NCBI RefSeq assembly: GCF_009017415.1
Contig: NC_092405.1
Location: 3,348,001 to 3,412,000, forward strand
Length of the DNA: 64,000 bases
Direction of reading: 5' to 3'
From: Aspergillus flavus
Taxonomy: Eukaryota > Ascomycota > Eurotiomycetes > Eurotiales > Aspergillaceae
Shown here: positions 16,957 through 46,552 of the stretch, piece by piece
How positions within the stretch are numbered: position 1 is the first letter of the stretch
Layout of the letters: each line of letters starts with the position of its first letter
Notes under the pieces: generated by a model
Told to the model about the DNA's origin: nothing
Database searches by the model: none
Seen by the model: the letters and a program-made list of their open reading frames with translations, nothing else
Position numbers and translations under genes: made by a program

Positions 16957-18678
16957 TCAGAATCCCAAATCTGTCAAGGCAAATACACCACTTCCCCCTA
17001 CGGCGTTTTGAGGGGGGAGGGAAACGTCGTTCCACTGCGATCCTGCGATCTTGTCGGTCAGATCTTTCTCATCTAATGAAACTCCATATCCTCCCTCTTC
17101 CTCCTCATCTGCAGCGGCTGTGCTTGTGTCCGGCTCAGTTCTGAGTTGGATTGTAGCCATCCGGGACTGAACCTCTCTGGTAGATGTCGGACGCTGAATA
17201 CCCTGTTTCCAATCGAAGAAATGGTCGGGGTCCCAGATCCGCTTGATTCGCTGTAGCTCCTGACGGTTGTTTCCGTAGTAGACCTTCTCGTGAGCTTCAG
17301 TGGTGAGAGTGCGATCAGGAAAATTGATGAACGCAGCCCGTCCCATCATCGAGTAGGGCTGCAGCTTCTGTTTGAACAGTCCGAGGAAACCCCACATGTC
17401 ACGCTCCAGCCATTTATCCTCCCACTGTAACATGATGTAAACGTGGTAGGTGCAATCACGCCAGCGAAAGGCCGTTGCGGAGCGCTTTTTCCTACTGGCC
17501 TCGCCGCCAGAATGAATCCAGGTCACCTGTAGCAGCCCCTGTTCCCCATTGAATAGTTTGCGGAAAGCCTGCATCTCCTTACGGATGGCCTCAGTAACGG
17601 CCTTCATCCGGCTTCGGTCGTTCTTGAAGACAAACGAGGAATAGATCTGGTAGGAACGGTTGGTGGGGAAGGACTTCACCGTTTCTTCGGACCACTGGCT
17701 CACGAGAGTCTCATGGAGGAAACGGGTGGATGGTTCCGCCATGGACCGTCGCTTCAATTGCTTTTTGAGCACTGGCTGTTGTACAAATGTGTTGATCACA
17801 TTGTCGAATTCGTCCTTGCTACCATCGAAATAGGACAGCACTCGAACGCCCAGTTCGCTGGAAGTCTGCTTTAAATCACACAGCCAGGAGCTATCCAGAG
17901 TCATCTGTTCCGGCCAGTCCGTGGTGTAGAAGCGAATCATTGTTTGCATAAAATCATCCATCTCGTCCACCTTGGGCATCCATGTGAAGCGTCCTGCGAC
18001 CACTTCCCCTCCGCTGTTCTGCAACTCCTGAATCTTGAGCTTCAATTCGACCACCACTCCGTAATTGCCACCTCCGGCACCGCATAGCGCCCAGAAGAGC
18101 CTGCCCTTGTCTGACTTGGGGTCATCGCCGTCTGTCACTGTTACTAATTTGCCATCCGCAGTGACGATAGTCGCCTCCTTAAGGGTGTCACACCCCATGC
18201 CGAAACTGCGGGTAAATGGACCAAGACCACCGCCTAAGGTGAAGCCACTCACACCCACAGTCGGACAGCGGCCACCGTTGATGATAGCGCCATTCATACG
18301 CTCATTGACTAGCTGTTTGTACGCGTGGCCCCATTGACAGCCACCCTGCAGGGTGACTATCATTGTCTTCCGATCGATCGTCACTTTCTTCATCCGGACC
18401 AGGTCCAACAAGATTCCGGTTTCGGCGCTGGAGAATCCAGCATACGAATGACCGCCATTCTTTATGGTAAGCGAGACATTCCGAGCCTTTGCTTGTGTGA
18501 CAATGTACTGCACATCGCCATGGCCCCGAGGCTGGACAACACAATCTGGTCGAGTAAACCGGTACAGGAGATTGGCCGTCGCAACGGAACGCTCGTATTC
18601 CACCTCACCCACTCGAAACACCGGTACTTCATTCGTGAGAAAGTCTTGAATGATTGCTTCTGTCGCCATGGCTGTCAA
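16957..18678 (-). CDS. FAD-linked oxidoreductase, berberine-bridge (BBE) type
   Basis: Intronless ORF of 573 aa. An FAD-binding PCMH domain occupies about residues 45-220. KNGGHSYAGFS carries the histidine (H77) and GGRCPTVGVSG the cysteine (C138) used for bicovalent FAD attachment in this family, followed by TLGGGLGPFTRSFG and CGAGGGNYGVV. The C-terminal BBE element is YYGNNRQELQRIKRIWDPD...FFDWKQGI. Such flavoenzymes oxidise alcohols or carry out oxidative cyclisation in fungal secondary metabolism. No signal peptide is visible, so a cytosolic location is likely. It also carries a 30-40 residue acidic tail. It is flanked by cluster genes and is probably a tailoring enzyme for the PKS product. 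The substrate cannot be read from sequence. Confidence 0.92.
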   Translation of the reverse strand: MTAMATEAIIQDFLTNEVPVFRVGEVEYERSVATANLLYRFTRPDCVVQPRGHGDVQYIVTQAKARNVSLTIKNGGHSYAGFSSAETGILLDLVRMKKVTIDRKTMIVTLQGGCQWGHAYKQLVNERMNGAIINGGRCPTVGVSGFTLGGGLGPFTRSFGMGCDTLKEATIVTADGKLVTVTDGDDPKSDKGRLFWALCGAGGGNYGVVVELKLKIQELQNSGGEVVAGRFTWMPKVDEMDDFMQTMIRFYTTDWPEQMTLDSSWLCDLKQTSSELGVRVLSYFDGSKDEFDNVINTFVQQPVLKKQLKRRSMAEPSTRFLHETLVSQWSEETVKSFPTNRSYQIYSSFVFKNDRSRMKAVTEAIRKEMQAFRKLFNGEQGLLQVTWIHSGGEASRKKRSATAFRWRDCTYHVYIMLQWEDKWLERDMWGFLGLFKQKLQPYSMMGRAAFINFPDRTLTTEAHEKVYYGNNRQELQRIKRIWDPDHFFDWKQGIQRPTSTREVQSRMATIQLRTEPDTSTAAADEEEEGGYGVSLDEKDLTDKIAGSQWNDVSLPPQNAVGGSGVFALTDLGF

Positions 18679-20750
18679 TCCTAGTTAAAGTAGAATTATT
18701 GATGATTCTCAAGGATGGAGTTGCTCTTCATCGCGAGATACCAGGGCGGGGTTTATAAGTTCGAGCGAGCCCCGAGCATGGGAGTTCAATAAGTGGTAAT
18801 CTCATAATTGAGAGGGGGAAGCCGCCCCTCTCGCCCTTCCCAGTATGTCCGTAGATCACCTGTACGCTTTAGGAATGTTGCAGCTAAGGCACAAATCGCA
18901 GTCGTTCGCCGATGGGAGGGAGAAGCTGAACATTTGATTTGGACGAATCACGCGCATGAGATAGTCCAATTCGTCGGGCAATCAGAAAGTCCGATGCTGG
19001 CATTGCTAACTTTGTGACCCAAGCTAGACAATTGCATGGAGTACGACGACAGCTGGCATGAGTGGTTCAGCCAGCCTTCAAGTATGTGTGATCGGCGAGA
19101 CGAGGCTGGCTGAAAAGCAGAGCGGGAAAGTCTCCGATACTTACGTTAACTGACACAATCTTCCCTTCCACAAACCTGTCCATTCATGCTGTAACTGCGA
19201 AGGAACGCGCATGATTTACATCTAGAATAATGTTGTTCAACAAGGTCCGTTTATCTTTGCGGAAAGAAAACGGGGAGAAGATGACCCACCACGGGTAAAG
19301 CCGCTGGATCCTAGAGATGATCTGCAGTCCGGGAGTGACTTGTTCGAAGTGGGGTAAAAAAGCCAGCTCAGTTGTTTTGGATACCAATACGAGAGCGATT
19401 ATCATGCTATGCCTGTCTGGAAGCTATGTCACATCGATCTTCGGAATCTTCCATGACCTCAGAGACGCCGACAACGCTTTCATGGTTTCCAATGGAAGAG
19501 TCCAGACATAGGTCTCTAGCGGTGGTCGACTATACCGGTAGGATGTGCCAGATATCTTCAGATCAGCTGTCCTTGGCATGTCAGCCATGTCAAGCAGAAA
19601 GCATGCAGACTCTCTGAAGCCAATGTATTGGCTGACTTGACCAGGACAACTGTCGATGTGACTGGCGCTGTTACTCGAAATTTATTGGCTGGTTGAACGC
19701 AATCCTCTGTCTTCCTGTCATTCCTCGCTGTTTATGTCTTTCGCATCAGCTTTGACTGCAAGCCCCTTATATTACAACCCTGCGATGTTGGTGAGGTTTT
19801 CCAAAAATCTAAGCGGTTTGGCTTAAGTGCTGGGCGGAGATTGATACAATATCGAGGCCAGTCATCTCCTTCTATGAGCGTGCTTTCGCTTTCGTTGGAA
19901 CTGGTGGACCCAGAATGAAGTTTTGATAGAATATGCCATGCCGTCATTTATCGTGCAGCTCGCATACTAGTTATGTTATTGGAACTAAGTAAAAAATATA
20001 GAATTAGAGAATTAGATTTTTGTTTTCGGCCTTTATACAGAGCCCGACAGCAGATCGCCCAATATTCCCCCTCAATGCCGACCACCGAGCAACGACATAT
20101 GATCCTCACCCGCATACTCCTTATGAATGCTCTTGGGCAAGCGCTGGGCAAGCATATGCGGTGGCGTGTTGACCCGACCCGCGGATTACTCCACTAGTCT
20201 CCTTGAAACTCCATATATATAATGAAGTTCCAACAGCATAGAAAATCGCGGATATACAAATGAGTCATCCAGTAAAATTGGGCACAGCATACTAGTCTCC
20301 CACTGCTACAGTTACTCTACATTAGACATGCTACTACTTCTCATGGGAGAGGTATTTCTAGCATACTAGTGTCTAGTTGACCTATTTGATACAGCTAAGG
20401 TGGAAAGACTTAATAATCTGAATGTCCTCTAATCTACCAGGTATAATGTGATAAGACTTGGTATATACCGTGCCTCAAGAGGCCTGTATATATTGCTTTG
20501 ACATTCAATTCACCCTTCATAACTCTATGGACCCTCATGCTTTGCACAACATCTTGGTCACAATGCCCCGATTAGTAAGGCATTGAGCGATATTTAGTCC
20601 AAGGGTTGTAGTCAAGTCTCTCTCATGCTACCAAAGTAATAAATACGACCTCCCACGTAGAAGCCCGGTTTGTATTGAAATGCACTCGCCTATCAGTAGC
20701 CACAGGATGCTCAAGTAGTATTTCCTCTCCAACAATTGCTCAAGTCTAGA
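18679..20750. other. 2-kb gap without a recognised gene
   Basis: Short frames only, none with a motif I recognise. A perfect 12-bp inverted repeat lies inside (annotated separately). It may hold decayed sequence. Confidence 0.45.
19066..19114. repeat. 12-bp inverted repeat (hairpin)
   Basis: TTCAGCCAGCCT at 19066-19077 is the exact reverse complement of AGGCTGGCTGAA at 19103-19114, with a 25-bp spacer. It could form a stem-loop or a dyad binding site. No gene product is implied. Confidence 0.55.
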
Positions 20751-24202: not shown

Positions 24203-25498
24203 ACAGCAAGATGTATCTACACTACATAGATAGCACCAACTGGTAGTCACACTCCGACCAGTAGGCATCGATTTAGGCCACCTTTGTAACTTGATAAGCT
24301 ATACAGTGAGAATGCGACTCCTCGAATGGACTTCCATTGGCTGTCAAGTTCAGCCCCACATGGCCTTTAATATCTCTTGTTTCGTTGATCGGTCAACCGC
24401 CCTGTAGTGTTCTTTATGGAAAGATGAAACCCATACTGACATGGCTGGAGGATTACCATTTTGGAGCCATACAGATTTAACATATGTCGGCATCATAAAT
24501 CCCTCACTTGGGCACAAGGAACCACTCGATGACACCCAGCATCAGGCCACGAATACTATCTGAGCAATTACTGGCCAAAGGGTAATGGAGCATGGTAGCG
24601 AGCTGACGACGACGTTTGACTTTAACATCCACATAGCCCTGGAGAGGGTGGCGGTGTTATTATTAATGCAAGGACTAGGATCACAGCCGGAGACTGTGAT
24701 TACAATGCTTGTGTTGGTGTGATGAGTATCACTTGCATACATCACCCTAATAGGATCATGTGGCTAAACATGATCTTTCAAACAGTTACGAACATGAGTC
24801 TTTGGGCTCGCATAATATCGACTTTCTTAGTTTAGTTTGCAGTGGCACAAACAGGGGACTCGGGGACAAGCGCCTAATGCATTCAACACCAGTTCTATAA
24901 TTAAGTATCGACTATTGACAAGGATATATGTAACTAGATAACGTAGTTGACAGCCCTCATTTAGGGTGCATTTCTCTAATTTCTTCCTCACCTGGTGCAC
25001 CACGGGTTTTCTTTGAGAGGCTTTTGCTGTATGGGGCCGACTATGTAAAGGATTTATTAACCATTTATTCAGTCTATACCCTCAAGCGTCAATAATATGG
25101 CGCCCATCGATATCTCGAAGGGAGAAGGCGCTTTTGGCGGAGAACTGCAAGGTACGGCCTTCTATCAATTGGGTTTTGGGCGTCGTAAAACTCCACCCCA
25201 AAGTTCAAACCCCGATCCCGGTAGAAAGAGGGTCTCGGGAACCACTCAGCACTTTCTGACGCCTACCAATTATGCCCTAGCTTTATAGGCCTACAGGACG
25301 GAAAGCTTAGCGTGTCTTGGAACAGCTTCTTTTGCCAGACTTAATTTGACAAGCCCACTTCCTTGGGACCCATATATGTACAGACACTGTGCCACATCCC
25401 AATGAGGTAGCTCACACGCGAATCGCGTTTTGACAGATTGTCGGGGCCAAGGTGTCCTAATTTCCACCCCTGCAACATTATTCCGTCTTGGTCCGAAA
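24203..25498. other. intergenic region
   Basis: 1.3 kb with no convincing gene. A 63-aa frame at 25097-25288 has no recognisable motif. Confidence 0.45.
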
Positions 25499-26381
25499 TC
25501 ACATCTCGGGCTCGGAAACACTACTGACTGTGCTGCAGATTGCCCGCGCCAGTTTGGTCAACTCCTCTCCCCGGCTGGGCACACCGTGTCCCGCGCAGTG
25601 TGCTACGTCGATCCGGTTGGCGGGATCACACATTTGCATCAGCAGGCGGCTGTGTCGGGCATAGTCCACATCGTTTGGACTCCAGGCATGCACGGTGGGA
25701 ATTCGAATGACGTTACCGGGGTCCCTAGGGTGGAGAAACTGTTTCCATCCCCTCAGGAGCCCACTCAGGTTATACGGCAAGACCCCACACAGAAGGATGG
25801 CGCATTTGAATGGTGAACTGACCGGAACTTGGCCTCCTGCGGCCTGGAGCTGATCAAAGTGCAGCAAAAGCATGACTGCCAGAGCTGCTCCGAGAGAAAA
25901 CCCCATCACTGCGTCAAACGGACCGTTCTCGTTTGTATAAACGTAGAGGTCTCGGACAGCTTTCATAGCACTACCTGCCGAGCCATCAAAGTAGGAGTAA
26001 TAAGGCTGATTATTGCCAAAGATCTCGCTGATGCCACGGGCTGCTGGGCAGTGATACTCGCCGTCGACAAAGTCGTACTCGAAATCTTGCCCAAGATGGT
26101 ATCTTAGAGCGGCTACAGGAGCTTCGCCATCAGAATTAAGAAGCGTAACATAGCCATACAGCCGTGGTTCCACTATGTAGGAAGGGGCTATGTTGGAGGG
26201 TGGACTAACCCGTTTGTGCCTCAAAAACCTTTAAAAGTGTCAATTCGGATCCAATGCTGTCGACCTGCTGGAGGGAACTAGGAATGCATTGTCACATTAC
26301 CTCACTGTTAGTCCCCATTCCATGAAGGCATAAAACCTTGAGCTTCCGAGCCTTCAATGGCTTGTCAGGGTCAGGTTGCAT
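25499..26381 (-). CDS. FSH1/LovG-type serine hydrolase
   Basis: Three exons: 26381-26301, a 19-nt microexon 26228-26210, and 26112-25499. Introns are 72 and 97 bp. Joined, they give 237 aa starting MQPDPDKPLKARKLKVLCLHGMGTNSE-VFEAQT-AALRYHL in consecutive short segments, the standard FSH1 N-terminus. The nucleophile elbow is GFSLGAA, the acid is in HAWSPNDVDY and the histidine in HCAGHGVP. The family includes LovG, the thioesterase that releases the polyketide from LovB in lovastatin synthesis. The gene is divergent from the HR-PKS with 572 bp between start codons, so shared regulation and a role in product release or editing of this PKS are likely (inference). It appears complete. Confidence 0.9.
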
Positions 26382-26953
26382 TTCGCTCAGATGTGCCTAC
26401 CAATTGGATGACAGCGATATGTGAGGGAAGGAGTAAACGACGAAAACGACTAAAGGCTACTTTAGCACGATGATCTGGGAATAGCTCAGTTTATGGGTAT
26501 CTGCCTGTATATTAGTTCAACGACTCTACCAGACTTGGGCGTGAGACGCGGGAGAGGGGGGTAAAATTAGGCAGGAGTCGTATTCGGTGCATGCAGATAT
26601 ACCAGGTTTGGAACATGCTCCACCAGACTCCCCATGTTTGTGACCACCTCGACATGCGTACTAGGAAATGCAAGGTGAGAAATGAAAAGAAAAAACAAAA
26701 AAAAAGACAAAAGAAAAGGCGAAAAGGAGAAAAAGCCAGACCCATGATGAGAGAAAAAGAGTATGTCCGGCCCGGTTTAGAATAGTTAACTTGGAACCCG
26801 GCAACGCGGCAAGTTTGTATATTGATGCTAGCATCAAATAAAAAGAACGATCACTTAGTGACCACAGAGTAAAGTGTTTACTGGGGTGTACCTCGAAAAA
26901 TACGTCTCCTGGCAAACTACCGCATACATACCGGCACAACTGACTAGATCGAT
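26382..26953. promoter_or_regulatory. bidirectional promoter, hydrolase / PKS
   Basis: The 572-bp spacer between the divergent starts of the FSH1-type hydrolase and the HR-PKS. It contains an A-rich tract (26681-26725). I did not identify a specific regulator site with confidence. Confidence 0.5.
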
Positions 26954-29900
26954 ATGCAGTCCCGACCACAGGAAAATCGAGGGAACTGCGCTCCTTCAGA
27001 GCCGCTGGCGATCGTGGGCTTTGCGTTCAAATTCCCAGACGGTGTTGATTCAGACGATACATTCTGGGACATGATCTGGAAAGGTAGATCAGCAACCATG
27101 AACTTTCCCGGGGATCGGCTGAACATAGATGGGTTCTACCATCCTGACAAGTCAAGACAAAGTAATGTAGGATTGCTCCATACTCGTGACTCTGAGCTTA
27201 TAGATACTGAAGCTCACCAGCAAGATAGGTGTATGTGAAGGGGGGAAACTTCATTCAAGACGATCTGGGCGCATTTGATGCGCCGTTCTTTTCTATATCA
27301 CCTTCAGAGGCAGCGTGCATGGATCCACAGCATCGACTTTTGCTTGAGACCGCGTATCACGCATTGGAAGATGGTGAGTTGCTCAGATAGACTAGCCTCT
27401 AGGAATGACTAACGATGACTGTCCAGCTGGGATACCCATGGAGAAATGCGCTGGTTCCAATGCCTCCGTGTATACGGGAAGCTTCACAAATGATTATCTC
27501 AGTATACTACAACAGGACTATGATGCAGAACAGCGCCACGCTGCTATGGGAATTGCAACCTGCATGCTGGCAAATCGCATAAGCTGGTTTTTCAATCTGA
27601 AGGGGACGTCTATGAATATTGACACTGCTTGTTCGAGTAGCTTGATCGCGCTTCATCTTGCATGTCAAGACCTCCGGGCGGGCACCGCATCGATGGTGAG
27701 TCCAATCTAGTCTGAGCACCTTGTCTGGATCACTATGCCCCTACAGTGCTGACAAGGCTCTTCATGATTAGGCGCTGGTGGGTGGTGCAAACTTAGTGTT
27801 CCACCCGCAGTTCATGAAGATGATGGCGAACGCTAATTTTCTAGCACCAGATAGTCAGTGTTGGAGTTTCGATGAACGAGCAAACGGCTATGCACGGGGC
27901 GAAGGCATAGCTGTGCTTGTAGTGAAACGTCTTGAAGATGCCTTGCGAAATGGAGATACCATCAGAGCTGTTATTCGTAATACTGGCTCGAACCAGGACG
28001 GTAGAACTCCCGGGATCACACAACCATGCCTTGAGTCGCAAATAAACCTGATCAAGGAAACCTACAGGCGGGCCGATATTGACATGCAGCCTACCCGATT
28101 TTTTGAAGCACATGGAACTGGTACTCCAGTAGGTGACCCGATAGAAGCAACTGCTATTGGTCGAGCATTCAGTTATTACCGAACCATGGATGATCCTTTG
28201 TACCTCGGTGCTGTGAAGGCAAACATCGGACATCTGGAAGGTTGTAGCGGCCTTGCTGGCGTGATTAAATCACTACTAGTTTTGGAAAACGGAGTGATCC
28301 CACCAATCGCCAAGTTCAAATCAGCTAGCAATCAGATTGATACGGAATCTCTGCCCATATGTGTATGTTACCGCAGTTGGAGCTACCTCGGGCCACATTA
28401 ATTGTCTAACCTTGGTAGTTTCCCACGAGCCCTCTTCCCTGGCCAACACCTGGTCTTCGTCGCGCTTGCGTATGTTATCGAATCGCATTTTATATTTATG
28501 CCTTGCAACAGGTACTTACTTAGACAGGTAAATTCCTTTGGCTTTGGGGGCACAAATACGATTATTATTCTCGACGATGCACATAACTACTTGCAGCTTA
28601 ATGGTCTTCGTGGTCACCACCGTACCTGGGAAGGAAGATGCGATAGCCAGGCTGTCGAACATAACTCCGTTGATCGGACTATGGCAACTATATCATATGG
28701 CGATGAAGCAAGCGAACTTTTAGATCTTCATGAAATGCCAAAACTCCTTGTTTGGTCTGCAAGCAGGAGGGAAGGGGCTGAGAAACTATCTGAGTCGTAC
28801 AGTGAACTTATTCGGGACACTCAATGTGACCTACGAGACCTCTCATACACTCTGGCGGAGAAACGAAGTCACCTATCTTGGCGCAGCTTCGCAATATCAA
28901 GTGAACGCGACAACAGGCTTTCTACCTCCAAGGCAAAGGTCGAGAGGCCGATCAGAGCCCATGAGAACCCTGGCGTTGCATTCATATTTAGCGGCCAGGG
29001 AGGTCAGTATCATGGTATGGGTCGTGAACTCTACCACTATCCAGAGTTTAAGAGGAGTCTTGATTCATCGGATGAATGTTTGAAGAGGCTCAATTGCCCA
29101 TGGTCACTCTACCGACTCCTCAGTGTCGGTCACTGCGACTTTCAAATTGACAGTCCTGAGTACAGTCAGCCATTGTGCACATGTATTCAGATTGCTTTGA
29201 TTGACTACTTCACCAGCATGGGCATCACGCCAACAGTTGTTTTAGGTCATTCTTCCGGCGAGATAGCTGCAGCGTACGCTGCCGGGGCCCTCTCCCGATT
29301 TGCTGCCATTAAGGTTGCTTATTATAGAGGCGTTCTATCGTCTAGGCTTGCAGATAGTGGGCCAAATCGGAGTATGATGGCGGTAGGTCTGTCGAAAAAC
29401 GATATTGCTCCATATATTCAGAGGCTCCAAGAGAAGGTCAACGCAGTCGACATTGTGATTGGATGTGTGAACAGTCCAAAAAGTATCACATTGAGTGGAA
29501 GCGCCGAGCAGCTGGACATTGTGAGGTGTTGGCTTGAAAATGATAATATATTTACACGGAAACTCCGGGTCAATGTTGCATATCACTCGAGGTCAATGAC
29601 TCACATCGTCGATGAGTACCTCCTGGCAATGGGAAGCCTTGAAAAAGGCCGAGAGTCTGGATACATACCGATGCTCTCATCTGTAACAGCAGATGTTGCT
29701 GCAGTGGATGCTCTCGGGAGTGCAGAGTACTGGATTCGAAACATGTATTCCAGGGTAGAGTTCGATCGAGCTATGTCCAACCTCTTGATACAACATTCAA
29801 AGGGGCCCCGCAAACAACTCGGCCGCTCCAACAGCACTTGGACGTCTCGAGTTACCCATCTCCTGGAGATCGGACCTCATAGCGTACTCCAGGGACCAAT

Positions 29901-32900
29901 ATCTGATTGCTTGCAAGCGGCCCACGCTGCAGAGAAGCCCGCCTATATTTCATCGCTCCTCCGGGGTGAGAATGCTCATCAGGCGGTTCTGAGAACAGTA
30001 GGAAAGCTGTACTGCGCCGGATTCCAGGTAAACTTGCTAAAAGCAAACTTACAGAACGACATGCCAAGACCAACGCCGAAGGGAATGCCAAGGTATCCTT
30101 TCGATCATAATACATCGTATTGGAAAGAAAGTCGAATAAGCAGGAACTTCCGTTTCCGCTCAGAACTGCGACATGACCTCCTGGGGACCCGTACCCTTGA
30201 TTGGAATCCAAGCGAGGCGCGATGGCGAAATACTCTACGAGTTGGTGAGCTGCCATGGCTGCGAGACCATAGAGTGGAAGGGCAGATCACGCTACCCGCC
30301 GCCGCCATGGTGGTGATGGCAGTTGAGGCAGTGAGACAGCTAATTGAAGACCCAGACAGCCTTGATACGATCAAGTTTGAAAACGTCAGCTTCTTGCACC
30401 CAATCCGTTTCTTCGATGGCACAGACCAGATTGAGACGCAGTTCACTTTATCTTCCGAGACTTCAACTTTGGGTAACACCTTCTGGTCAAGGTTTAGGCT
30501 TTTTGCTATTGAGAATGACTCATATGTGGAGTGCTGTAAAGGACTTGTTCGTGTTACTGTTACTTGTGACCAACCAGCCACGGGCAGGTCCCCTATGAGA
30601 ATCCCGTTTGCAACCCTAGGAATTGCTTCCTGGATCAAAGACATTCGCGATGCTTGCAGAGGACCAGAGGTAGATGCCTATTCGGTGTTGAAGGCTACTA
30701 CAGTAGACTACGGTCCCTGCTTTCAGAATGTCCAGGGGTTACGCTTAGGAGACAGTGGTGAGGCGATAGCAGAGGTACAAATTGGCACCTGGAAGTCGAG
30801 GACAGACACCAATATACGGGCTCAGAGGTACGCAGTGCACCCCTGCACACTTGATGGCTTGGCTCAAGTACTGTTTCCGGCCGTCATGAAGGGGGGAAGG
30901 GTCCTTCCTACAATGGTCCCAACGCACGCCGCTAGCATCTGGATCAACTGCAGAAGGTTCCAACTCCTTCACAAGGGCAGTCTTGGGGTTTCTGCTAGGT
31001 GTAACATACGTGGAACCCGAGGGTCGTCGGGCAACATTGTAGCAACCTCTCCCGGGTCCGATGATATACCATTGGTATATATCGAGGGACTGGAAACTAC
31101 GTTCCTTGGTACCCATGAGACTTCCAGGACTGAGAACGAGGCGCTCCGTAATCTGTGTACTCGCATCCTTTGGCGGCCTGATATTGATCTCATGAGCGTT
31201 GAAGAGTTAATGACAGAATGCTCGCGTGAACGACCAGAAGAGCCCAGAGATTCTGTCCAACAATATAAGACTCTAAAGCTTGCCATCTTGACATTCATCG
31301 ATAGTGCCATGAGCATCATTGACCAGGCTGGCAGTTTGTCCATACCAGAGGAATTCAAACCATACGTGGCTTGGATGGAATACCAGCAGCGTCGACCGGA
31401 GAATTCTGAACTTCGCACAATAGCTCAGAGGCTAATAGCTAACAGCGGTGAGCACGACAGGCTTGTTACTCTGGTTGAAGAAACCGGCGTGGAGGGTGAA
31501 TTCTTTATGAATGTTGGCAGCCACTTAACAGCTGTACTTTCTGGCAGCGTGGATCCCCTAGAGTTAATGTTTAAAAACAATCTTGCCGACCGTTTTTATC
31601 AGCAGATGTTAGGAAACCCCTACCATACTCATCCTGTGAAAGTATATCTTGATTATCTCTGTTTCAAAAACCCATCTATGAACTTCCTTGAGGTTGGTGC
31701 CGGTACCGGAGGTCAAACATCATGTGTATTGAAATCTATCGTGTCGGATGGTTTGCAAAGGTGTGCTCGGTATGATTATACCGATGTATCACCAGCCTTT
31801 CTTTCGAATGCCCGCGAAAGGTTTCAGGAATATGCCGGTGTCATGCGTTTCCAAGTCTATGATCTCTCCATCGACCCAATCTCACAGTCCTTTCAACCAA
31901 ACAATTACGATGTGATTATAGCATCGCATGTCCTCCATGCTGTCGATAATCTAGAGCAAGCTCTACAGAATATTCGAACGCTCCTCAAACATAATGGGAA
32001 GCTCTTATTATTCGAAACTACGGATCCCAATTCCTTGCCCATTGGGTTCGCCTTTGGGCTACTCAGGGGATGGTGGAGTCCCCTTGCGCTTGATTCAAGG
32101 TCCCAGCACAGCCCCTGCCTGACGACTGCTCAATGGGACAAGAAACTCAAGAATACAGGTTTCTCTGGAGTGAATCTGGAATTCGAAGGTCAACAGTATC
32201 CTGAGTGTCAATATAGCAGTATCATTATCTCCAGCGCAACCGCCCACGCCAATGGAGTACCCCCGGTGAACAGCGTGTCTGGTATCGGCAGCGACATAGT
32301 CGTGATGATAGACCCGCAAGTTGGGGATCAGTGTCGAGTTGCCTCTTCCCTCGAGGAGCATTTTAGTAATATTTACACATACAGCCTTCAGGAACTCACG
32401 ATGATGGATCTTTCACCCTCAACGTTAGTGGTGTCTCTTGTGGAGCTGAACAAACCATTCCTTAATGCCATGTCTGTGCATGATTTTGGCAATCTCCAAT
32501 CGATGCTCCTTAAATTGAAGAATATTCTCTGGGTCACACAAGCACAAGGCAGGTGTACTCCGCATCAATATCTAGCGGAGGGATTCGGTCGCTCGCTAGC
32601 ATCCGAAGACTCAACAAGAGTGTTTGTCACACTTGCTCTAGATGGTTCTGATATGAGAGTCAAAGAACGCCGTGACCTGATTTCACGTGTTGTGAAACGG
32701 ATACAAGAGGGGCCCAGGAGTGATCTAGAGACGAACTTCATCGTCAAAGGTGGTCTGCTGCAGATACCCCGGGTCTCGGCAGACTTTACCATGAATGACA
32801 GGGTTAATGAGGCGAAACAACAATACCAACAGGAACAATGGCAGTTGCCCAGTCCGGCCCAGGCATTCATCAAACTGCGGTCACCTGGCCCACACCATAG

Positions 32901-35150
32901 CTTGGAATTCTGCGAGAAGCCAATGGAGACACAACCGCTTAACGACGTCGAACTAATTGTCGAAGTCAAATGTGTGGGATTGTCCTTCCGGGACTACCTT
33001 GCTGCTATAGGGCAACTTGATCATTCTGAACTGGGTATGGAGTGTGCTGGAATTGTCAAGGTAGCTGGGTGCAAGTCTGGCTTTAACTCGGGTGATCGTG
33101 TCTGCCTTATTGGGACATCCATGGCTTGCACGTCAGTCCGGATTAGGTCAGACGGTGCTAGAGCCTTACCCCCAGATGTCACTTTTGCAGAAGGAGCTTC
33201 ACTACCCTGTGCTGTCTGGCTAGCCTATCACTCCTTAGTTCGTGTTGCTAGGATTCAAAGGGGAGAGTCCCTCTTGATTTGCCAAGGGTCCAGTACCGTT
33301 GCTCAGATCGCCATACAAATAGCACTCACCCGAGGGGCTCGCATCCTTGCGCTCGTTAGTTCCGAGTCCAAGAGAAACTTTCTATCCCAGACGTTTGGAA
33401 TTGAGCGACGAGAGACTTTCTTGAGCGACGATCCTTCTACGAGTAGCAGACTGCAAGAAACTACGGATGGAAAAGGCGTTGATATCATCTTCGGTTCCTT
33501 GGCCGATTATAATATGATTGATTTTTATGAGTATCTTGCCCCCCATGGACGTCTCCTCGATATCAGCTTAAAGCCCTCATCAAGTATTAGAAGCCCTATG
33601 CCAGGTATGGGACCTGCGAATGTAACACAAGCATCAATAAATCTTGCAGAGCTTCTTCGAACAAAGGCGTCCACCGCTCATCAGATCTTCCAGGAAGCCA
33701 TGGAGTTGTACTTCTGTCAACAGCTCAAGCCTCCACAGCCCATCAACATTATCCCTGCCATGGATATTGAAACAGCGTGCTATAAGCTAAATATCTCAGA
33801 TTCAATTGGAAAACATATTGTGGAGTTGAGTGAGGGGGTTACAATCGATGTATGTTACACACACGAAGCTCCAGTCGATAGACATAACAGCTCACCAATG
33901 TCCTAGGTAAATGCCGTCAAAAGACCTGGATATTACTTCTCTAATGCTGCTACCTATGTTATTGCTGGTGGGCTTGGTGGGTTGGGGCGAAGCTTTGCGC
34001 GATGGATGGCTAGCAGAGGTGCTCGCCACCTGGTTCTTCTCTCTCGCTCTGGTCCCCAAACTCAAGCAGCAAAGTCTCTGCTACATGAATTAAGAGCCCA
34101 AGGAGTTCAGGTTGTTGCACCGCGCGTCGATATTGGAGATTTCCATGAGCTCAACGAAGTGATAAGTTGTTTATCCGTGTACATGCCTCCGATTCGTGGT
34201 TGCATACAGGCGACGATGGTTCTGAAGGTGGGATTTACCACAAGCACTCCTCCTTACATCAACATGACCTGAACTATATTGACTAATACGTTTCAAAGGA
34301 TAATCTCTTCGGAAACATGAGCCATGATGACTGGACTCAGAGCACACAGTCCAAGGTTGCTGGCTCCTGGAACTTGCACCAGCTATTGCCAGAGGGTATG
34401 GACTTCTTCATCCTCATTTCATCCATAAATGGGATTCTGGGCGGTATGGCCCAGGCAAATTATGCTGCCGGCAATACCTTCGAGGATGCACTCGCACGGT
34501 ACAGAATTGGTATTGGAGAAAAGGCCATCGCGATTGATCTAGGGCTCATGGTTTCAGAAGGCCTTGTAGCCGAGAACAAGTCCTTGCTGGCATCTCTCCG
34601 ATCGATGGGCCACTTAATGGATATATCGCAAGACGACCTAATGTCCCTCCTAGACTATTACTGTAACCCGAACCTCCCGTTACTTTCCCAAGACGAGGCT
34701 CAGGTACTTGTTGGCATCGAGCTGCCATCCAACGTACGCGCCAAAGGGAAAGACCTCCACCACTTTACGCGTCGCCCCATATTCCGCCATTTGTTCGTCA
34801 TTGATAGACAGCTAAAAGTGAGTAGTGCAGAGATTGAAGGTCCTAGCATACCCACTGCTATAGATCGACAATCTGAACTCAGGGCGGTACCATCGCAGGA
34901 TGAGGCTGTTTCCCTTGTCACCGGTTGGATCCGCGTTAAGTTGGCACACATCATGGGTATTCCTAGAGCGGAGATCAGTCCTGAGAAGCCGGTGAGTGCT
35001 TACGGGATAGACTCACTGATGGCCTTGGATCTGAAGAACTGGTTCCATAATGAGATCGGTGCGGAACTCGTCATCTTTGATATCATGAGTAGCATGGACC
35101 TGAGACAGCTGGCCGGAGTGGCTGTTAGGAAGAGTCGCTACCGGAAATAA
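26954..35150 (+). CDS. highly reducing polyketide synthase (HR-PKS)
   Basis: Eight exons: 26954-27166, 27229-27373, 27427-27695, 27772-28362, 28419-28469, 28528-33849, 33907-34227 and 34299-35150. All join in frame to about 2587 aa. KS: Cys188 in DTACSSS, His323 in [12 protein letters not shown], His363 in NIGHLEG. AT: GHSSGE with Ser665. [12 protein letters not shown] with His1004, and Asp1199 in CTLDGL. Methyltransferase: [11 protein letters not shown] near 1478. ER: about 1868-2197. [14 protein letters not shown] near 2212, plus SSINGILGG...[19 protein letters not shown] with Ser2543. The ER nucleotide loop, normally GGVGQ-like, reads QGSSTVAQ at about 2009-2016, so ER activity is doubtful. 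No release domain is fused. The neighbouring FSH1-type hydrolase may release the chain. The product is a reduced, possibly C-methylated polyketide. Confidence 0.96.
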
Positions 35151-36221
35151 AGGATAGGCAACCTATTCTATCTGTACAACAGTTTACTCGAGCAGAGACT
35201 GGGCTAGGAGGCAGGTAGCGTGCCGTGCGCGGTTGCACGATACCGTAGTGAACTTCCAACAGCATACAATTACTATGGCTTTACTTGAATGTAGTGATCC
35301 CTGTAGTACAATACATTTCCTACAATCAGTGGTAGCTTCTTACTATGCCTGAAGAAATTCTTGGCTGCTTTCTAAATACGGCTTGAAATCATGAGTCCCT
35401 GGTCAAAACAGGCTTTTGTTCTACTTACAAGCGTTCCGAGTCGTCTCAGTCGCTCGGAGACAAAATACTTTATGCGATGAAATTTGTTCATGGATTCTGT
35501 GGCGAGCCTGGATAAGTTCAAACTTCCAGCTAAACAGGATCATGCCTACCAAACATGAACAGCCACTGTAGTCTCTCAATGCTCATATTATGGTAGAGTC
35601 CAATTTTTCGAAGCTAACTTCAGGGCCATGCTAACTATATAGCCGTTCCTCATAAGATCCCAACAACTATACTTGCATCGATTTCCTGTATACCACCTGC
35701 TAGCGTTGGCTTCGGCATTGTCTGCACGCAGGTCTCACTATACTTATTACACAAAGACTACGACTTCTGGCCAAACCCTTCGCATCAATGGCTCGTCTAC
35801 GAGACAACTCATAGGGACACTACTACCATTGAGCTGCAAAGGACCGACCAGACTGTTTCAAAGTAACGAAGCCGAGCTCGCCAGCCCGTCTCCGTACATC
35901 CAAGGTAATCACGATATATAAGCCCCATGTGCGAACTGCTCCGAAAAGATCCGAAGTGACTCGCGCGTGGTACTTTTGGCGCCTCATACCACCTTTTCTG
36001 CGACTGGGCCGTCCACTTATTGCTGCCTAGATTGTCCATTACATAGCCAAGGTACTCCCGGAGAGGGTATAAAAGTGGTATAAAGGCAGAAGCCCACCTC
36101 ATCGCCAGTACGTCGCTTGTAGACTATTCTTTCCTCTTCCTTACTATTACACCTTAGACTCGACCATAATTCCAGTTTCTGGAGTCTCTCGCGACATTGG
36201 GACAAGCAGCAGCCAGTCATC
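35151..36221. other. intergenic region with promoter of the V-ATPase c gene
   Basis: About 1.07 kb without coding signal. TATAAAA at 36068-36074 and a pyrimidine-rich stretch (36127-36140) precede the V-ATPase subunit c start, consistent with a core promoter. Confidence 0.5.
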
Positions 36222-37017
36222 ATGCTTTCAGAGTTTTGGTGAGTGTTTGCCAATATCCATAGCTATAATATAACCTTTTATAATATGCTAACATAAGCAC
36301 GAGCAGCCCTGTCTACGCAGTACGTGCAACACCACCATACCTAGAGATGAAGATGTATGATGTCAAGCCGGTAACTAATCTGAATCCCAGCCTTTCTTTG
36401 CTGCCGTAGGGTGCACCTGCGCTATTGTCTTGACTTCTTTCGGTGCCGCGTATGGCACTGCAAAGGCTGGGGTTGGGATCTCCTCAATGGGTGTCCTGAG
36501 ACCCGATCTAATCGTCAAGAGTATGTGATTATCGATCCACTATCACGACGCATTAACAGAAGATTTCAGATATCGTCCCCGTTGTCATGGCCGGAATCCT
36601 TGGTATTTACGGACTAGTTGTGTCCGTATTAATCGCAAACAATCTCGCTCAGAAGATAACCCTTTACACCAGTATTGTGCAAATGGGTGCAGGGCTCGCA
36701 GTTGGGCTCGCAGGGCTAGCCGCTGGGTAAGAAGGGATTGTCAAAGTATCACTTCGGATAATTAGCCTTTAATTGACTTTGATAATAGATTTGCTATCGG
36801 GATTGTGGGCGATGCTGGTGTGAGGGGAACGGGGCAGCAGCCTCGACTTTACGTGGGCATGATTCTCATTCTTATTTTTGCTGAAGTCCTAGGTGAGTAA
36901 AGTTGCCTATCCTTCATATGGCTTCCTGCACTAATGTTGTCCTCAGGGCTTTATGGGTTGATAGTTGCGCTCTTGATGAACTCTAGGGCTGGAATAGTAA
37001 AGCATAGATGTGAGTGA
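36222..37017 (+). CDS. V-ATPase proteolipid subunit c (Vo c ring)
   Basis: Six exons: 36222-36238, 36307-36319, 36391-36520, 36570-36726, 36789-36892 and 36947-37017. All join in phase to 163 aa, the family's normal length (about 160). Four membrane helices are visible: [43 protein letters not shown] in two parts; [22 protein letters not shown]; and [22 protein letters not shown]. Helix 4 carries the proton-carrying glutamate E138 in IFAEVLGLYG. RPDLIVKNIVP and [20 protein letters not shown] are hallmark loops. The cytosolic loop ([20 protein letters not shown]) and the last residues (AGIVKHRCE) look divergent. It is part of the rotor ring that pumps protons into vacuoles and Golgi. Its place 1.07 kb after the HR-PKS suggests an extra copy acting as a self-resistance target (inference). 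Confidence 0.93.
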
Positions 37018-37721
37018 TTACTGAGCGCTTGTGGGTAGGTTTGATATAATACATACATGCTCTCGTCTCTCATATTTTCGTGGATACTAGGTTAGCCATT
37101 GGATAGATATATCTGCCACCAATATATAAGGACATGGAAAGCTTTCGGGAAAACCTCCGATCTGTTTGCCTAGGTCTTTGCTAGATAAATTATCAAAGCC
37201 AAGACTTGGATCTTATACGCATTCCCAGTAATGTTCATGGTTAAAGATATATAAGACCACCTGATCTACTCATTAGTTCAGGGATCTAGTTGAACAACCA
37301 ATACTATCTGAAAACATCACGACTTGCATCACATCTGCATTCCTGCCTGGTTGCCTCCAAATAACGATCAGACTATCCAGTCAGAGTACGTTGGGTAGCA
37401 GTAGATCCCCACTAAAGCGTGTCTACCCCTCATCGACAGACAAGGCTGACCTGCGCAACAGAAGGGCATTTCTTCAGATCTTCCTGAGCTGTACACAGAA
37501 GTAGGCACTTAAAACAACAGATGAATAGAGGGAAAGTAAGAAGTCTCCATATAAATCTTCACGACTCCTGTGGTTTGATAATTATACTCAGTAACAGGAG
37601 AATAATATCTATCAGATTCCTGTACGGCGCTCTGCTCATCACCAAAGACAATCTAAGTGCAGCCATACCTCACCTCAATAGAACCAGGTAAAACACTCCG
37701 GTTACCTACAAGACGGGTACT
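37018..37721. other. intergenic region
   Basis: About 700 bp with no recognised gene. Confidence 0.45.
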
Positions 37722-38848
37722 ATGAAGGCACCATTGTCGCATAACGACTACACGGTTGGATGGATCTGTGCGCTTCCATTAGAAATGGCTGCAGCCAAAG
37801 CAATGCTGGATGAAGTTCATCCAGACCTGTCGAGCTCGCTAGGTGATCACAACACCTACACACTCGGTACGGTGGGTTCTCACAATATTGTCATCGCCTG
37901 TCTACCTTCATGAGTATACGGAACGACATCTGCAGCGATCGTGGCCTCCCAAATGATGCCCAGATTCCCATCGCTCCGTTTCTCATTGATGGTGGGGATT
38001 GGCGGAGGAGTACCAAGCAGAGGCGCGGATATTCGACTGGGAGACGTTGTAGTTAGCAACCCGACGAAAGGCTTCCGGGAAGTGGTCCAGTACACTACGG
38101 GAAAGTCATCCGAGGGGGGCGATTTGAGCGCACTGGGACGTTGAATAAGCCGTCGCAGCTGCTGTTGACGGCACTGAATAAACACCAGGCGAACAATTTA
38201 TTGAACGGCTGCGACCTTTCGAAGCACATTTCCCAGTCGGCAATTATGACTTCCAGCCATACTAGTGAATTCACGTATCAAGGTCAAGAGGAAGACAAGC
38301 TCTTCCACCCTGAATATGACCACATGGCTCCCCGTCGTAGTTGTGAAAGCTGCGACCACACCCAGCTAGTGAACCGACCTACTCGGTCTTCAACTGAACC
38401 GAGAATCCACTACGGTCTGATTGCATCTTGTAACCAAGCAATGAAGGATGCTAAACCTCGAGACCGACTGGCACGCCAGCTGGGAATCATATGTTTAGAG
38501 ATGGAGGCTGCCGGGTTGGTGGGTCACTTTCCATGTCTCGTCATCCGGGGTATTAGCGACTATGCGGAATTTCACAAGAACGATCAGTGGCACGGCTATG
38601 CCATAGCAACGGCAGCAGCATATGCAAAAGAGCTCCTCTCCGTTGTGCTTCCTGTCGAAGTTGTGGGAAAGGATCCTGCCGATGTACGATCGACAGCTGC
38701 GAGTGAATCAAGCCTCATGAGTCCTGACAGGTCGGTCTATTCTGGGACATTCTTCTCCGGCGGCGGACCGATATTTTTGAGAAATCAAAATGCCGGGAGG
38801 GATAGAAATATCAGGACCGGTTCCCATAGTCGAGACTCTACCTTTTGA
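37722..38848 (+). pseudogene. nucleoside phosphorylase (NLR effector domain), broken
   Basis: Starts [23 protein letters not shown], the standard N-terminus of PNP_UDP_1 effector domains in fungal STAND proteins. GIGGGVPSRGADIRLGDVVV and the C-terminal CLEMEAAGLVGHFPCLVIRG and DYAEFHKNDQWHGYA follow. Two breaks are visible. The first is an in-frame TGA at 37911-37913, where the family has glycine (GVYGTTSAA context). The second is a 1-base shift near 38130, between GGDLSALG and TLNKPSQLLL. No splice pair removes the stop. In intact relatives this domain precedes NACHT or ankyrin repeats and is thought to act on nucleosides in incompatibility reactions. The sequence after 38700 is a variable tail. 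Confidence 0.78.
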
Positions 38849-40679
38849 TGTTATATTTGGTTATAAAACTGCAGCTTCATCCTGACGGGTTTCAGGTAGT
38901 AGTCAGGCTCCACGCCTACCAAGCAATTTAAATTGACAGCCAAATGCTCGTGCCCTAATAAACTCACACGTCGTAACCACACAGAAACTGAGATGTGGTT
39001 CGCTGAAAGCACTTGTAGCAGCTGTAGTTGGAAGCTAACCTATTAATCGAAAAAATACTAAATATATATATACATATTTTAAACTATTTTGACTATACCT
39101 CGTGGCATACTAAATGCCGACACATTCCACAACCGCGCTCAATGACTACTCGGCGTGGTCAGGGAGGCTGAAAGATAGGTTGGAGGTACGAAACAAAAAA
39201 AGACTAGGCAGCTATACAGGGTCATCTGAGCTATTACTGAGAGTCAGCACATTAGTAAATACCCCTCCAAGTCCTCCCCACCAATCATTGCCCGGACATG
39301 TCGATCGTGCGGTAGATCATCCCCTGGGAGCTGGCGCTGTGTGTGTACAAAGAACCCTGCCCAACCCGGCATATTCGGGTTCTTCTATAAGTTGTATAGT
39401 TGACAAATTTCGTATTAGAATAACTGTTCTGTGGTTAGAAATATAAGGCGATATCCCGTACATACCGGAAACAATTTTCCGAGCCTTCTTCCTCACCTTG
39501 GGTGGCAGTGGACGGCTGGCTCAGGGCCGATCCGTGCAGCCTTAGCGAGTGATTCCACATTGACACGTTCCCCATTTCGGAGGCTGACGCTCGTCGAACT
39601 GTCACAGTTGGCGAGATACACTAGACAGCTTTTCTTTGGAAGATTTGTAGGTGCAGGAAGCCTAAGTCCCCTGTGCCAGCGCCGGGTCCTGAAAGGGAAT
39701 CCTGTAAGACACAGTTACTGCCACCGGTCAACGCCGAAACTAAACGGAATTGAGCGTATTCTCCAACATTCGTCTATTAAGTAAATCTATGTGTAACAGA
39801 GGGGTATGCTAGTGTGTTGGAGGGTAGTTGGTCGGCTTGGCACCTCATCTAGGATACGGTTCGGCTCTATTAATCACCTAGCCGTGAGTAGCTAGGGTCA
39901 TGAATCGGGTGCCTTTCTTTTTCATGACCAGCTCTTTTTGTCTGAGAGAAGCCAAACGTCACAAGGCACCTGCCCCATATCACACGTCACATAGTGTAAA
40001 GCATACTCAGTAAAGCAAACACTCTAGCTTGAGCCGGGTAGCTTGGACCCTCTGCTCTTGATGAGGTTGAAGACTCTCTCTGAGGCGAAGGCCGCAATAT
40101 CCTTTACAGAATGAGGCTGCACCGAAAGCAAGGGCAACGACAATAGAAAAGAAGGGAAGGCGAAAGAGGAAATAAAACATGCCGGTCGTGCACATGTGTC
40201 CAAACCGTTTATAAGTGTCAATTATTCCTTAGACTTTTGCCCTGGAATTTTCTCCAGCGATCAAACTTGGATATATGGTAAATGTGACATTGTATATACC
40301 ACGATATCTCAGGATTCTGAACCCAAGCCAGATATTATGACGTTACAATACTCCCACCAGCATGGCATCCCTAGACCAGAACCCATGGTTAAGCGCAACA
40401 ATAGCACGGATGCTTCTCCTGGAGGCAATCACGTATATCTTGGGAGGTATAAAGTAGAGAATGGACATATGATTTCTGGGAATGTGTCCCCACAAGGGGA
40501 TATATACATTGAGACTCAGAGCAAGCCGCTTAACTATCTAGCGTTTATCTAGTGTTTTTAGGATTTATTATTGCTAACATTAAACATTTCGTGAAAGAAA
40601 AAAATTCATACTTGGCTATCCTCACTTAATTTCCTTCAAACTCAGCAGGACCTATTCAGAAAAAGACCACAGTGGACAG
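38849..40679. other. gap between NLR relics
   Basis: Mostly non-coding, with an AT run near 39055-39090. A frame at 40196-40552 ends with HVYLGRYKVENGHMISGNVS-like text that resembles the variable linker between effector and NACHT domains in fungal STAND proteins. This is too weak for a separate call. Confidence 0.4.
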
Positions 40680-44216: not shown

Positions 44217-46552
44217 TCAGAAGTCGTTGGTCCATAGCGGAATGCTAGGCCACGAGTCTGGAAGATTCGTTGATATTTCTTCGGGGTCTAACAAACCAAT
44301 GTCTGTAACCGATTGGGTTAGGAAATCCTCCATCGTTGGTTGGTACAGGGACATCTCTGCCGTCTTATACTGCGGGTCTGAAATAGGAAGCTGTGCAACG
44401 CTGGTGGGATATATCTGTGAGTTGGTCGGCGGTACGTAGGTAGTCGCTGTGGGATGCGGTACAGATGGAGCATCATCTTCACAAGGTTCCTGAACCTGAA
44501 TCATTGTATTGCCTAGGGTTGAAGGTAACCGTGAGGAGAATCTACCGCTTCTATGGCACTTTTGAACTTTCTGAATATGTTCGTAAAGATCACCGGCCAT
44601 GAGGTTACCATCTGCGGCGAAAGACCTTAACATCTCCGCAGCGGTATCAATAGATGCTAAGTCATCCGCATTTCCATATGGGAGGAGATTTGAAATAACA
44701 AGGACAAGCGACGATGTGAAAATGTACTGTGCGAAGGCGAATCCAAACACGGAGATAGATCCTTTCGTCCATTCATCAGCACAGAGAATCAAGGTGTGCC
44801 GTGCAGAATGAATGCACGCTTCGGTCAAGGCGGCCAGGGCAGGCGATAACGTAGTTTCGGGGCTGAAATCTGTTGTTGCAATATGATCGAGTATGCCCAG
44901 CAATAGTGGGCGTATGGCAAGAATCAAACACTAGTTCAGTCAGTAGTGATACAAGGCCGAGGAAAACAAGAGCCCACATAGTTGAATTGTAGATGAATAA
45001 GAACGGTACACCTGGGATTATGGGTGTCAGGTTGGAGCCGAATATGATCAGGAACTGACTGCATCCACTGCTTCATCTCGTTCAGAAGCTTTTGCTCTCT
45101 TTGTAATAATGTTTCCGCAGATTTTTGGCGGCTGTAGATATTTCGCATAATATGTGTAGAAATCCTGGCAAGCTCTATGACAGCCACCTGGTATGAACTG
45201 TCTGCGAACTCGTCGTGGAATGTTTCAACAGCGAGGTTTGAAGGAAAATCAACATGGATATCATCATCGTTGACCTGCATTGGAAGTCCAAGCTTTAGCC
45301 CCCAAAAGCGATCAAAGATGTATATCGTCCACCACACACGAATGCGATTCTCCCTTGCGATGGGATCAGGGTATTGCGTCTCGGGGATGTTATGATGGAA
45401 GCCAGCAGACAATCCAAGTCGCAACGCGATTCCTACCAGAACATAGGCTGAATGCCACCTGTTCAGAAATTGACTACAAAGTGCCTCATACAGGTCAGTA
45501 AATCCCGAGGTAAAGAGGAAGAGAGAAAGTAATACCAGAATTAAGAGAGCCTCTATATGGGCCATATTGGGTCTCTCCGGTAGCACAGAAATCATATTGA
45601 TGGCACGCGCATAGTAAGTTGTGCCAGGTGAAGTGTCATTGTTCAGTCTGCCACTCGGAACCGAGCATACTTCACCTAGAGCAAAAAGAGCAAAGTACTT
45701 GCACACTAAAACAGGATCGTCGAAGGATGCGTTTTGGTAAATAGTTTGAAGGTAGTCCACGCTGGTCTTCCGCAGTGCGAGGTGGAATGGTGGATTGGCG
45801 TGGCCAAGCGCAGTATTCACAAGCAATCGAGCGCAGGCAAGGCTAGGCCATTCACTCTCTCGTATGAAAGAACTCCCAGAGCAGACTCCTTAACATACCT
45901 CACTCGTGGCATGTCTGAAGTCGAAGCGTCCTTGCTATTCAAGCATTGGCACAGGCGCGTTGCAAATGCAGTACAGGCTACCTCGCTAACATAGATGGGG
46001 AGAGCCGACTTGTTCTGTGTTTGAAACCACGCCCAGTCCTTTAATAGCGGATTTCGTGTACTGGAGTCATTCTCTGATATTGGATTACGTGTGGAGGTTG
46101 GAACGCCACCACTCTCTGCCCCGAAGGTGATATTGCTGACTGACTCTCGCTGATTTCGATGAAGTTCTTGACTGTCTTGGATCAGTTGCTCTAGGTAGCT
46201 AATGTTCGGACATCAGTGTGGACCCTTAGTACTAATTATATTATCGGGATAGGCAAGGGAGCCCTACCTTTCATCGACACGGACTTTGCGGTCGCGTTTA
46301 ATATATCTGCATTCTTTCTCACACCCAGCCACCAGGCATCTAGAACAGGGCTTTCCGCCGGTGCACTTGACTTTCTGCGAATGGCATCTCTGGCAACTAA
46401 GTCTCAAAGCCTTGTTCAGAGACTTAACTTCACGGTCTTGGTGATCGCACTTACGCTACAGAGCGCTTGATTCCCAAAGGCTTCCTCGGGTGATGAGCCG
46501 AGCTTCTTACGTGCGTGATAAGACGGTTCTCCTGACTCATTTGGCGAATCAT
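44217..46552 (-). CDS. Zn2Cys6 fungal-specific transcription factor
   Basis: Five exons: 46552-46511, 46455-46268, 46198-45899, 45854-44978 and 44930-44217. Introns of 55, 69, 44 and 47 bp all preserve frame, giving about 706 aa. The DNA-binding domain reads CQRCHSQKVKC-x5-CSRCLVAGCEKEC, a complete Zn2Cys6 cluster, followed by the basic linker RYIKRDRKVR and the helix YLEQLIQDSQELHR. The fungal_trans middle homology domain includes ALRLGLSAGFHH, RENRIRVWWTIYIFDRFWGLKLGLP and a DDDIHVDFP segment. It is nuclear and probably binds CGG-type sites. It is divergent from a GNAT gene (358-bp spacer). It could regulate that gene or, less certainly, the biosynthetic cluster whose own regulator appears damaged. 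Confidence 0.93.

Follow-up and report, generated by a model that had tools for sequence, protein, structure and literature searches.

A second V-ATPase subunit c lineage of Aspergillus, represented by a gene beside an HR-PKS in Aspergillus flavus

The ring of the V-ATPase holds several copies of subunit c, and LovG-type FSH1 enzymes release the products of HR-PKSs. Here we describe an Aspergillus flavus locus in which an extra subunit c gene, VMA3B, lies directly beside an HR-PKS gene that has an FSH1 neighbour. The closest described counterparts of its product are yeast Vma3 and Neurospora vma-3 (TIGR01100), which it resembles as a subunit c by curated model, by solved relatives and in the essential glutamate. 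With the housekeeping VMA3 of A. flavus it has in common the bafilomycin-contact residues and the lengths of exons 1-5; it differs from housekeeping subunit c in overall sequence (134/161 residues identical to its own VMA3), in Leu64 and Ser26, in an altered helix 2-3 loop and tail, and in occupying a second locus. For resistant target copies the available part of the FunARTS paper (PMC10320164) gives a control table that pairs lovastatin with HMG-CoA reductase and citreoviridin with the F1-ATPase beta subunit. Like such copies, VMA3B is an extra copy of a core gene placed directly beside a reducing PKS; unlike them, its clade occurs in more of the listed species than the PKS does, its linkage to the PKS was not seen elsewhere and its bafilomycin site is unchanged. 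As in LovG-type HR-PKS and FSH1 pairs, the A. flavus FSH1 gene adjoins the HR-PKS and the pairing recurs in other fungi, but among the listed homologues a subunit c gene was not seen with the pair outside A. flavus. Our literature search, partial in coverage and therefore no proof of absence, found no fungal gene cluster reported to contain a V-ATPase subunit c gene. The words 'ATPase', 'proteolipid', 'vacuolar' and 'V-type' are absent from the main text of PMC6517689, and the accessible parts of PMC4773799, PMC5489174 and PMC11332344 contain nothing on the VMA3B/PKS locus. The 'plasma membrane ATPase proteolipid' of A. carbonarius, named in the accessible part of PMC4713082, must, to judge from that name, be another gene.

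The window, i.e. the whole 64,000-nucleotide stretch of A. flavus DNA that was analysed, at C4:3348001-3412000, contains the following features at and around the locus:

16960..18684, minus strand: berberine-bridge-type FAD oxidoreductase (PF01565, E 4e-28; PF08031, E 1e-11)
25502..26230, minus strand: FSH1 serine hydrolase, main exon open frame (PF03959, E 3.2e-19), divergent from the PKS
26954..35150, plus strand: HR-PKS, 8 exons, 2,587 aa, open throughout
35151..36221, no strand: intergenic gap from the PKS stop to the VMA3B start (1,071 bp), VMA3B upstream region
36222..37017, plus strand: VMA3B, additional gene for the V-ATPase proteolipid subunit c (163 aa from six exons; PF00137 exon matches)
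44220..46212, minus strand: fungal-specific transcription factor (PF04082, E 3e-18 on 44939-45889), with other coding-like pieces

The exons of VMA3B (36222-36238, 36307-36319, 36391-36520, 36570-36726, 36789-36892 and 36947-37017, plus strand) are separated by five introns, all with GT-AG borders, the frame is intact, and the spliced translation agrees in every letter with the A. flavus database protein P0001. The earlier note had described a complete six-exon subunit c gene carrying the essential helix-4 glutamate and starting 1.07 kb after an HR-PKS on the same strand, and all of this was confirmed, the glutamate being Glu138 (bovine E139), which is also present in all 42 tabulated database rows and in A. 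flavus VMA3. The TIGR01100 score of 161.5 bits lies well above the family cut-off of 61.45. Among proteins of solved structure yeast subunit c matches best, scoring 237 bits where c' reaches 175, and no c'' chain occurs among the 12 solved-structure matches at E<=1e-20; these scores rule out VMA3B as a c' or c'' gene. Judged by its sequence, VMA3B is an intact V-ATPase subunit c gene with a predicted function in the c ring. The lengths of exons 1-5 (17, 13, 130, 157 and 104) are the same in VMA3B and in the canonical VMA3 of the same genome, which makes VMA3B a DNA-level duplicate, introns included; a retrocopy origin is thereby ruled out.

Profile and sequence searches covered the whole A. 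flavus genome (37.7 Mb, 8 contigs). A conserved VMA3 was found on contig C1 (C1:2058962-2059648), so the window gene is an extra copy, and the possibility of VMA3B being the only subunit c of the genome, which the earlier note had counted against its own idea, is excluded. Further PF00137 or subunit c matches genome-wide, at C5:3245 kb (exon matches with 48-67% identity), C4:728 kb and C3:1629 kb, were read as VMA11, VMA16 and mitochondrial ATP9, respectively. Subunits a and d each have one genomic place, and on this ground a second complete V-ATPase was rejected as far as the Vo subunits searched go; among these, subunit c is the only doubled one.

For the phylogenetic tree 49 rows were chosen by hand from the best 120 protein matches (P0059 and P0008 were left out). 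The window copy falls inside a 23-row clade of second subunit c proteins with support 99/98, for which the name VMA3B was coined in this analysis, and the canonical A. flavus VMA3 falls outside it. Besides the window copy, members come from A. flavus NRRL3357 and AF70 (P0004), a further A. flavus record (P0023), A. parasiticus (two), A. transmontanensis, A. leporis and A. avenaceus; A. affinis, A. floccosus, A. niger (two), A. tubingensis (two) and A. luchuensis also belong here, as do A. ibericus, A. carbonarius, A. aculeatinus, A. egyptiacus, two Penicillium and one further record. We take these species to span sections Flavi, Circumdati, Terrei and Nigri, plus A. egyptiacus. Leu64 is present in 23 of 23 clade rows. 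In the other 97 of the best 120 rows residue 64 is Ile in 93, Val in P0075, and Leu in P0059 (Penicillium paradoxum) and P0008 (a Polarella record), both outside the tree; this survey took in all 120 rows, of which P0008 (settled by eye) and P0063 (unread) fell outside the search pattern. A helix-1 sequence pattern missed 31 of the 120 rows, and no result rests on it.

A. flavus has VMA3B proteins of two types, which differ by about 9%, and one of these types is nearest A. avenaceus. The AF70 protein P0004 has 149/163 residues identical to the window copy and 152/156 to the A. avenaceus one, and it groups with A. avenaceus together with P0023 (locus-tag prefix G4B11, presumably strain AF13), support 98/91. 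Such a distribution suggests exchange or long-kept variants. As a separate observation, P0066, P0093 and P0102 (Penicillium nalgiovense, P. hordei and P. majusculum) form a divergent subunit c group of their own (100/96), possibly another second-copy lineage.

Across 150 codons compared, 26% of the nucleotides are different between VMA3B and VMA3, with dN 0.095 and dS 2.4, the latter near saturation, and dN/dS of about 0.04. From these dN and dS values the duplication is old and its protein has been kept by strong purifying selection. Between A. flavus and A. niger 135 of 163 VMA3B residues are identical, while the canonical copy has 154 of 161 in common between A. flavus and A. sclerotiicarbonarius; VMA3B thus appears to evolve faster than VMA3, which would also fit a resistance gene. 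GC3 is 0.50 in VMA3B versus 0.60 in VMA3 and 0.79 in ATP9, a weak hint that VMA3B may be expressed at a lower level.

Residues at the inhibitor site were compared in a table of 21 of the 23 clade rows, 21 other rows and A. flavus VMA3. Left out were P0020, treated as a misannotated duplicate, and P0023, treated as partial, as well as the tree members P0048, P0057, P0066, P0093 and P0102. In the available part of the cryo-EM study (PMC7979754) the bafilomycin contacts are, in bovine numbers, M53, I56, V60, I67, L133, F137, V140 and Y144, and the change of G63 to Ser in yeast subunit c is given as conferring bafilomycin resistance. The earlier note had proposed comparing the positions that line the c-ring inhibitor groove; at all eight bafilomycin contacts, and likewise at Gly62, VMA3B is identical to A. 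flavus VMA3, so that none of the nine positions examined, all of the bafilomycin site, is changed. Through the clade (21 rows) the contacts are constant, the sole departures being a Val to Ala change and a single gap. The differences from VMA3, Leu64 and Ser26 among them, lie instead at the N-terminus, in helix 1, at residues 40-44, 58, 64, 78-92 (the helix 2-3 loop and the start of helix 3) and 121, and in the C-terminal tail. By helical-wheel reasoning residue 64 would face away from the bafilomycin side. The helix 2-3 loop and the C-terminal tail are more variable in general among the tabulated rows. The accessible part of a study on PA1b-resistant weevils (PMC4047407) reports two subunit c changes, one within the helix 2-3 loop and the other where helix 4 ends at the C-terminus, that are accompanied by partial bafilomycin resistance of the same animals, so the changes in VMA3B might have an indirect effect.

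The domain order of the HR-PKS was read as KS-AT-DH-MT-ER-KR-ACP from sequence motifs and the Pfam list of P0121. Its main exon is 100% identical over the whole length to P0121 (2,587 aa; AFLA_011883, A. flavus NRRL3357), and an older identifier is perhaps AFLA_105450, as far as the available parts of PMC4073137 and PMC3877130 go. The NRRL3357 tags run consecutively through AFLA_011882 (subunit c, P0020), AFLA_011883 (PKS, P0121) and AFLA_011884 (FSH1, P0241). By analogy, FSH1 is likely the product-release partner of the PKS, a predicted role. PKS orthologues of at least 70% identity come from four species among the best 120 of 4,944 matches: A. flavus (100%), A. minisclerotigenes (99%, best local alignment, covering 45% of the query), A. 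pseudotamarii (78%) and A. nomiae (70%); the next match among these 120 has 50%. The next FSH1 homologues, too, are from A. pseudotamarii and A. nomiae, each apparently on the PKS-bearing contig of its own species.

Contigs were compared for 119 of the 120 PKS rows (P0121-P0240), 35 FSH1 rows (P0241-P0275) and the 23 VMA3B rows, with equally long contigs equated; P0209 (26938) was left out and by eye is in neither other list. Seventeen of the 35 listed FSH1 homologues, A. flavus included, appear on contigs that also bear listed PKS homologues, and the locus tags of FSH1 and PKS follow directly on each other in Penicillium frequentans, Cordyceps sp. RAO-2017 and Cytospora schulzeri, so the PKS and FSH1 form a recurrent pair. 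The recurrent neighbour of the PKS among the listed homologues is therefore FSH1 and not subunit c. No contig was common to the 23 VMA3B rows and the 119 PKS or 35 FSH1 rows, and the comparison missed even the A. flavus adjacency, because each 90% cluster is represented by its longest contig alone; such clusters may also conceal VMA3B copies of A. nomiae, A. pseudotamarii or A. minisclerotigenes. The comparison weakens the claim of VMA3B-PKS linkage, though such linkage may still exist. VMA3B is also listed for species that have no listed PKS orthologue among the best 120 of 4,944 PKS matches, and the view of VMA3B as a private companion of the HR-PKS is not supported by these lists.

A genome search with PF16197 gave at least 28 ketosynthase-associated places, five of them below the curated cut-off. 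With an A. flavus gene count of about 13,000, some 0.4% of genes would adjoin a PKS. Given how many core genes are duplicated, one such neighbour is by itself unremarkable. Shared promoter words were tried as a sign of common control and rejected as being at about chance level: the VMA3B upstream region (35151..36221) and the FSH1-PKS divergent promoter have two 10-base words in common against 1.5 expected (200 shuffles) and no 11-base word.

Taken together, we consider VMA3B best read, with a probability of roughly 0.6, as an accessory, functional c-ring isoform belonging to an old Aspergillus/Penicillium lineage distinct from VMA3. Its product would enter the c ring and replace some of the housekeeping c subunits under particular conditions, and its changes would tune packing or lumenal contacts and not the plecomacrolide site. 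The place beside the HR-PKS and FSH1, an adjacency known here for A. flavus only, would more likely reflect an accident of the locus, or an association formed late, than explain why the gene exists. Against this reading, VMA3B copies of other species may lie in gene clusters of their own. A second Aspergillus subunit c lineage with a simple mark, Leu64, is a useful result as things stand; automated resistance-gene mining could flag such a copy even where it is no cluster's own resistance gene.

A possible, though rather unlikely, alternative is that VMA3B guards against V-ATPase inhibitors of competitors or of species-specific clusters and merely landed beside the PKS. The wide, faster-evolving clade would agree with this, as would the second VMA3B type of AF70 and P0023 with its suggestion of exchange or long-kept variants. 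We know of no V-ATPase inhibitor from a VMA3B-bearing species, and the near constancy of the bafilomycin contacts in the clade speaks against such a role. Some precedent is offered by the accessible part of a 50-species scan (PMC6517689), in which extra target copies of another family, lying outside predicted clusters, were read as resistance without biosynthesis.

The earlier note had favoured dedicated self-resistance, i.e. that the product of the PKS and FSH1 inhibits Vo and VMA3B supplies c subunits that escape the block. What stood of this inference is the extra copy beside the HR-PKS, on the same strand and across a short gap; the putative target is moreover the only one doubled among the Vo subunits searched. 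The citreoviridin and F1-ATPase beta subunit pair of the FunARTS control table (PMC10320164, available part) is a precedent, and VMA3B is altered in the same regions, the helix 2-3 loop and the C-terminus, as subunit c of the PA1b-resistant weevils (PMC4047407, accessible part). The idea is weakened, however, by a clade wider than the listed PKS orthologues, by FSH1 as the recurrent partner of the PKS, by equal bafilomycin contacts and by the old, constrained duplication. The loop and tail are, besides, the parts that vary more generally, the promoter words agree at about chance level, and a multi-copy c ring would need near-complete replacement, for which the GC3 of 0.50, weakly hinting at lower expression, is not favourable. 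We hold it to be unlikely. If true, a fungal V-ATPase inhibitor of a crop-contaminating species would become genetically accessible, and target duplication would gain a c-ring example.

Less likely still is a variant in which PKS and FSH1 would make a Vo inhibitor that acts at the helix 2-3 loop or the inner helix and not in the bafilomycin groove, with VMA3B, derived from an older tolerance paralogue, as the self-resistance subunit; the two A. flavus VMA3B types (window/NRRL3357 versus AF70 and P0023) would then distinguish producing from non-producing strains, or strains whose products differ. A decaying duplicate or annotation artefact without function is very improbable: the window copy has four residues found in no other of the 21 tabulated rows of the clade (Gly14 to Ala, Ser20 to Cys, Cys41 to Ser and Ala121 to Gly) and the NRRL3357 subunit c model AFLA_011882 (P0020) has 145 aa and lacks residues encoded by the window's VMA3B exons, but splice sites and frame are intact, dN/dS is about 0.04, and the essential glutamate and the inhibitor-contact residues are kept.

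For the surroundings of the locus, a Pfam scan was made of 20 stretches, mostly taken from 57 coding-like ones, with 21181-21735 added from the ORF list. It gave an FSH1 hydrolase, a fungal rhodopsin, a BBE oxidase, an S15-type hydrolase, fungal transcription factors, GNAT, ankyrin repeats, a piece of a nucleoside phosphorylase, DUF3435 and DUF3723, in agreement with the accessory-gene surroundings that had been claimed from the letters alone. A six-frame Pfam search of 18700-26951 (E<=0.01) found no further biosynthetic genes, FSH1 and the fungal rhodopsin being the sole matches. Within 25000-40000 there are no tandem repeats save an A-rich stretch at 26685-26718, and G+C is even across the window (0.43-0.51). 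Among the members of DUF3435 are the tyrosine recombinases found in large mobile elements of fungi; weak matches to this family lie in two open frames at 50214-51412 (plus strand; E 2.3e-6 each), one of three genomic places with such matches. The stretch 23789-24199 (plus strand) is coding-like and by eye resembles the C-terminal part of a methyltransferase, with no Pfam match. A TCGG-N8-CCGA palindrome of the Zn2Cys6 type is located at 37145-37160, 127 bp past the VMA3B stop, and a similar element, CGG-N8-CCG, occurs upstream of the BBE oxidase.
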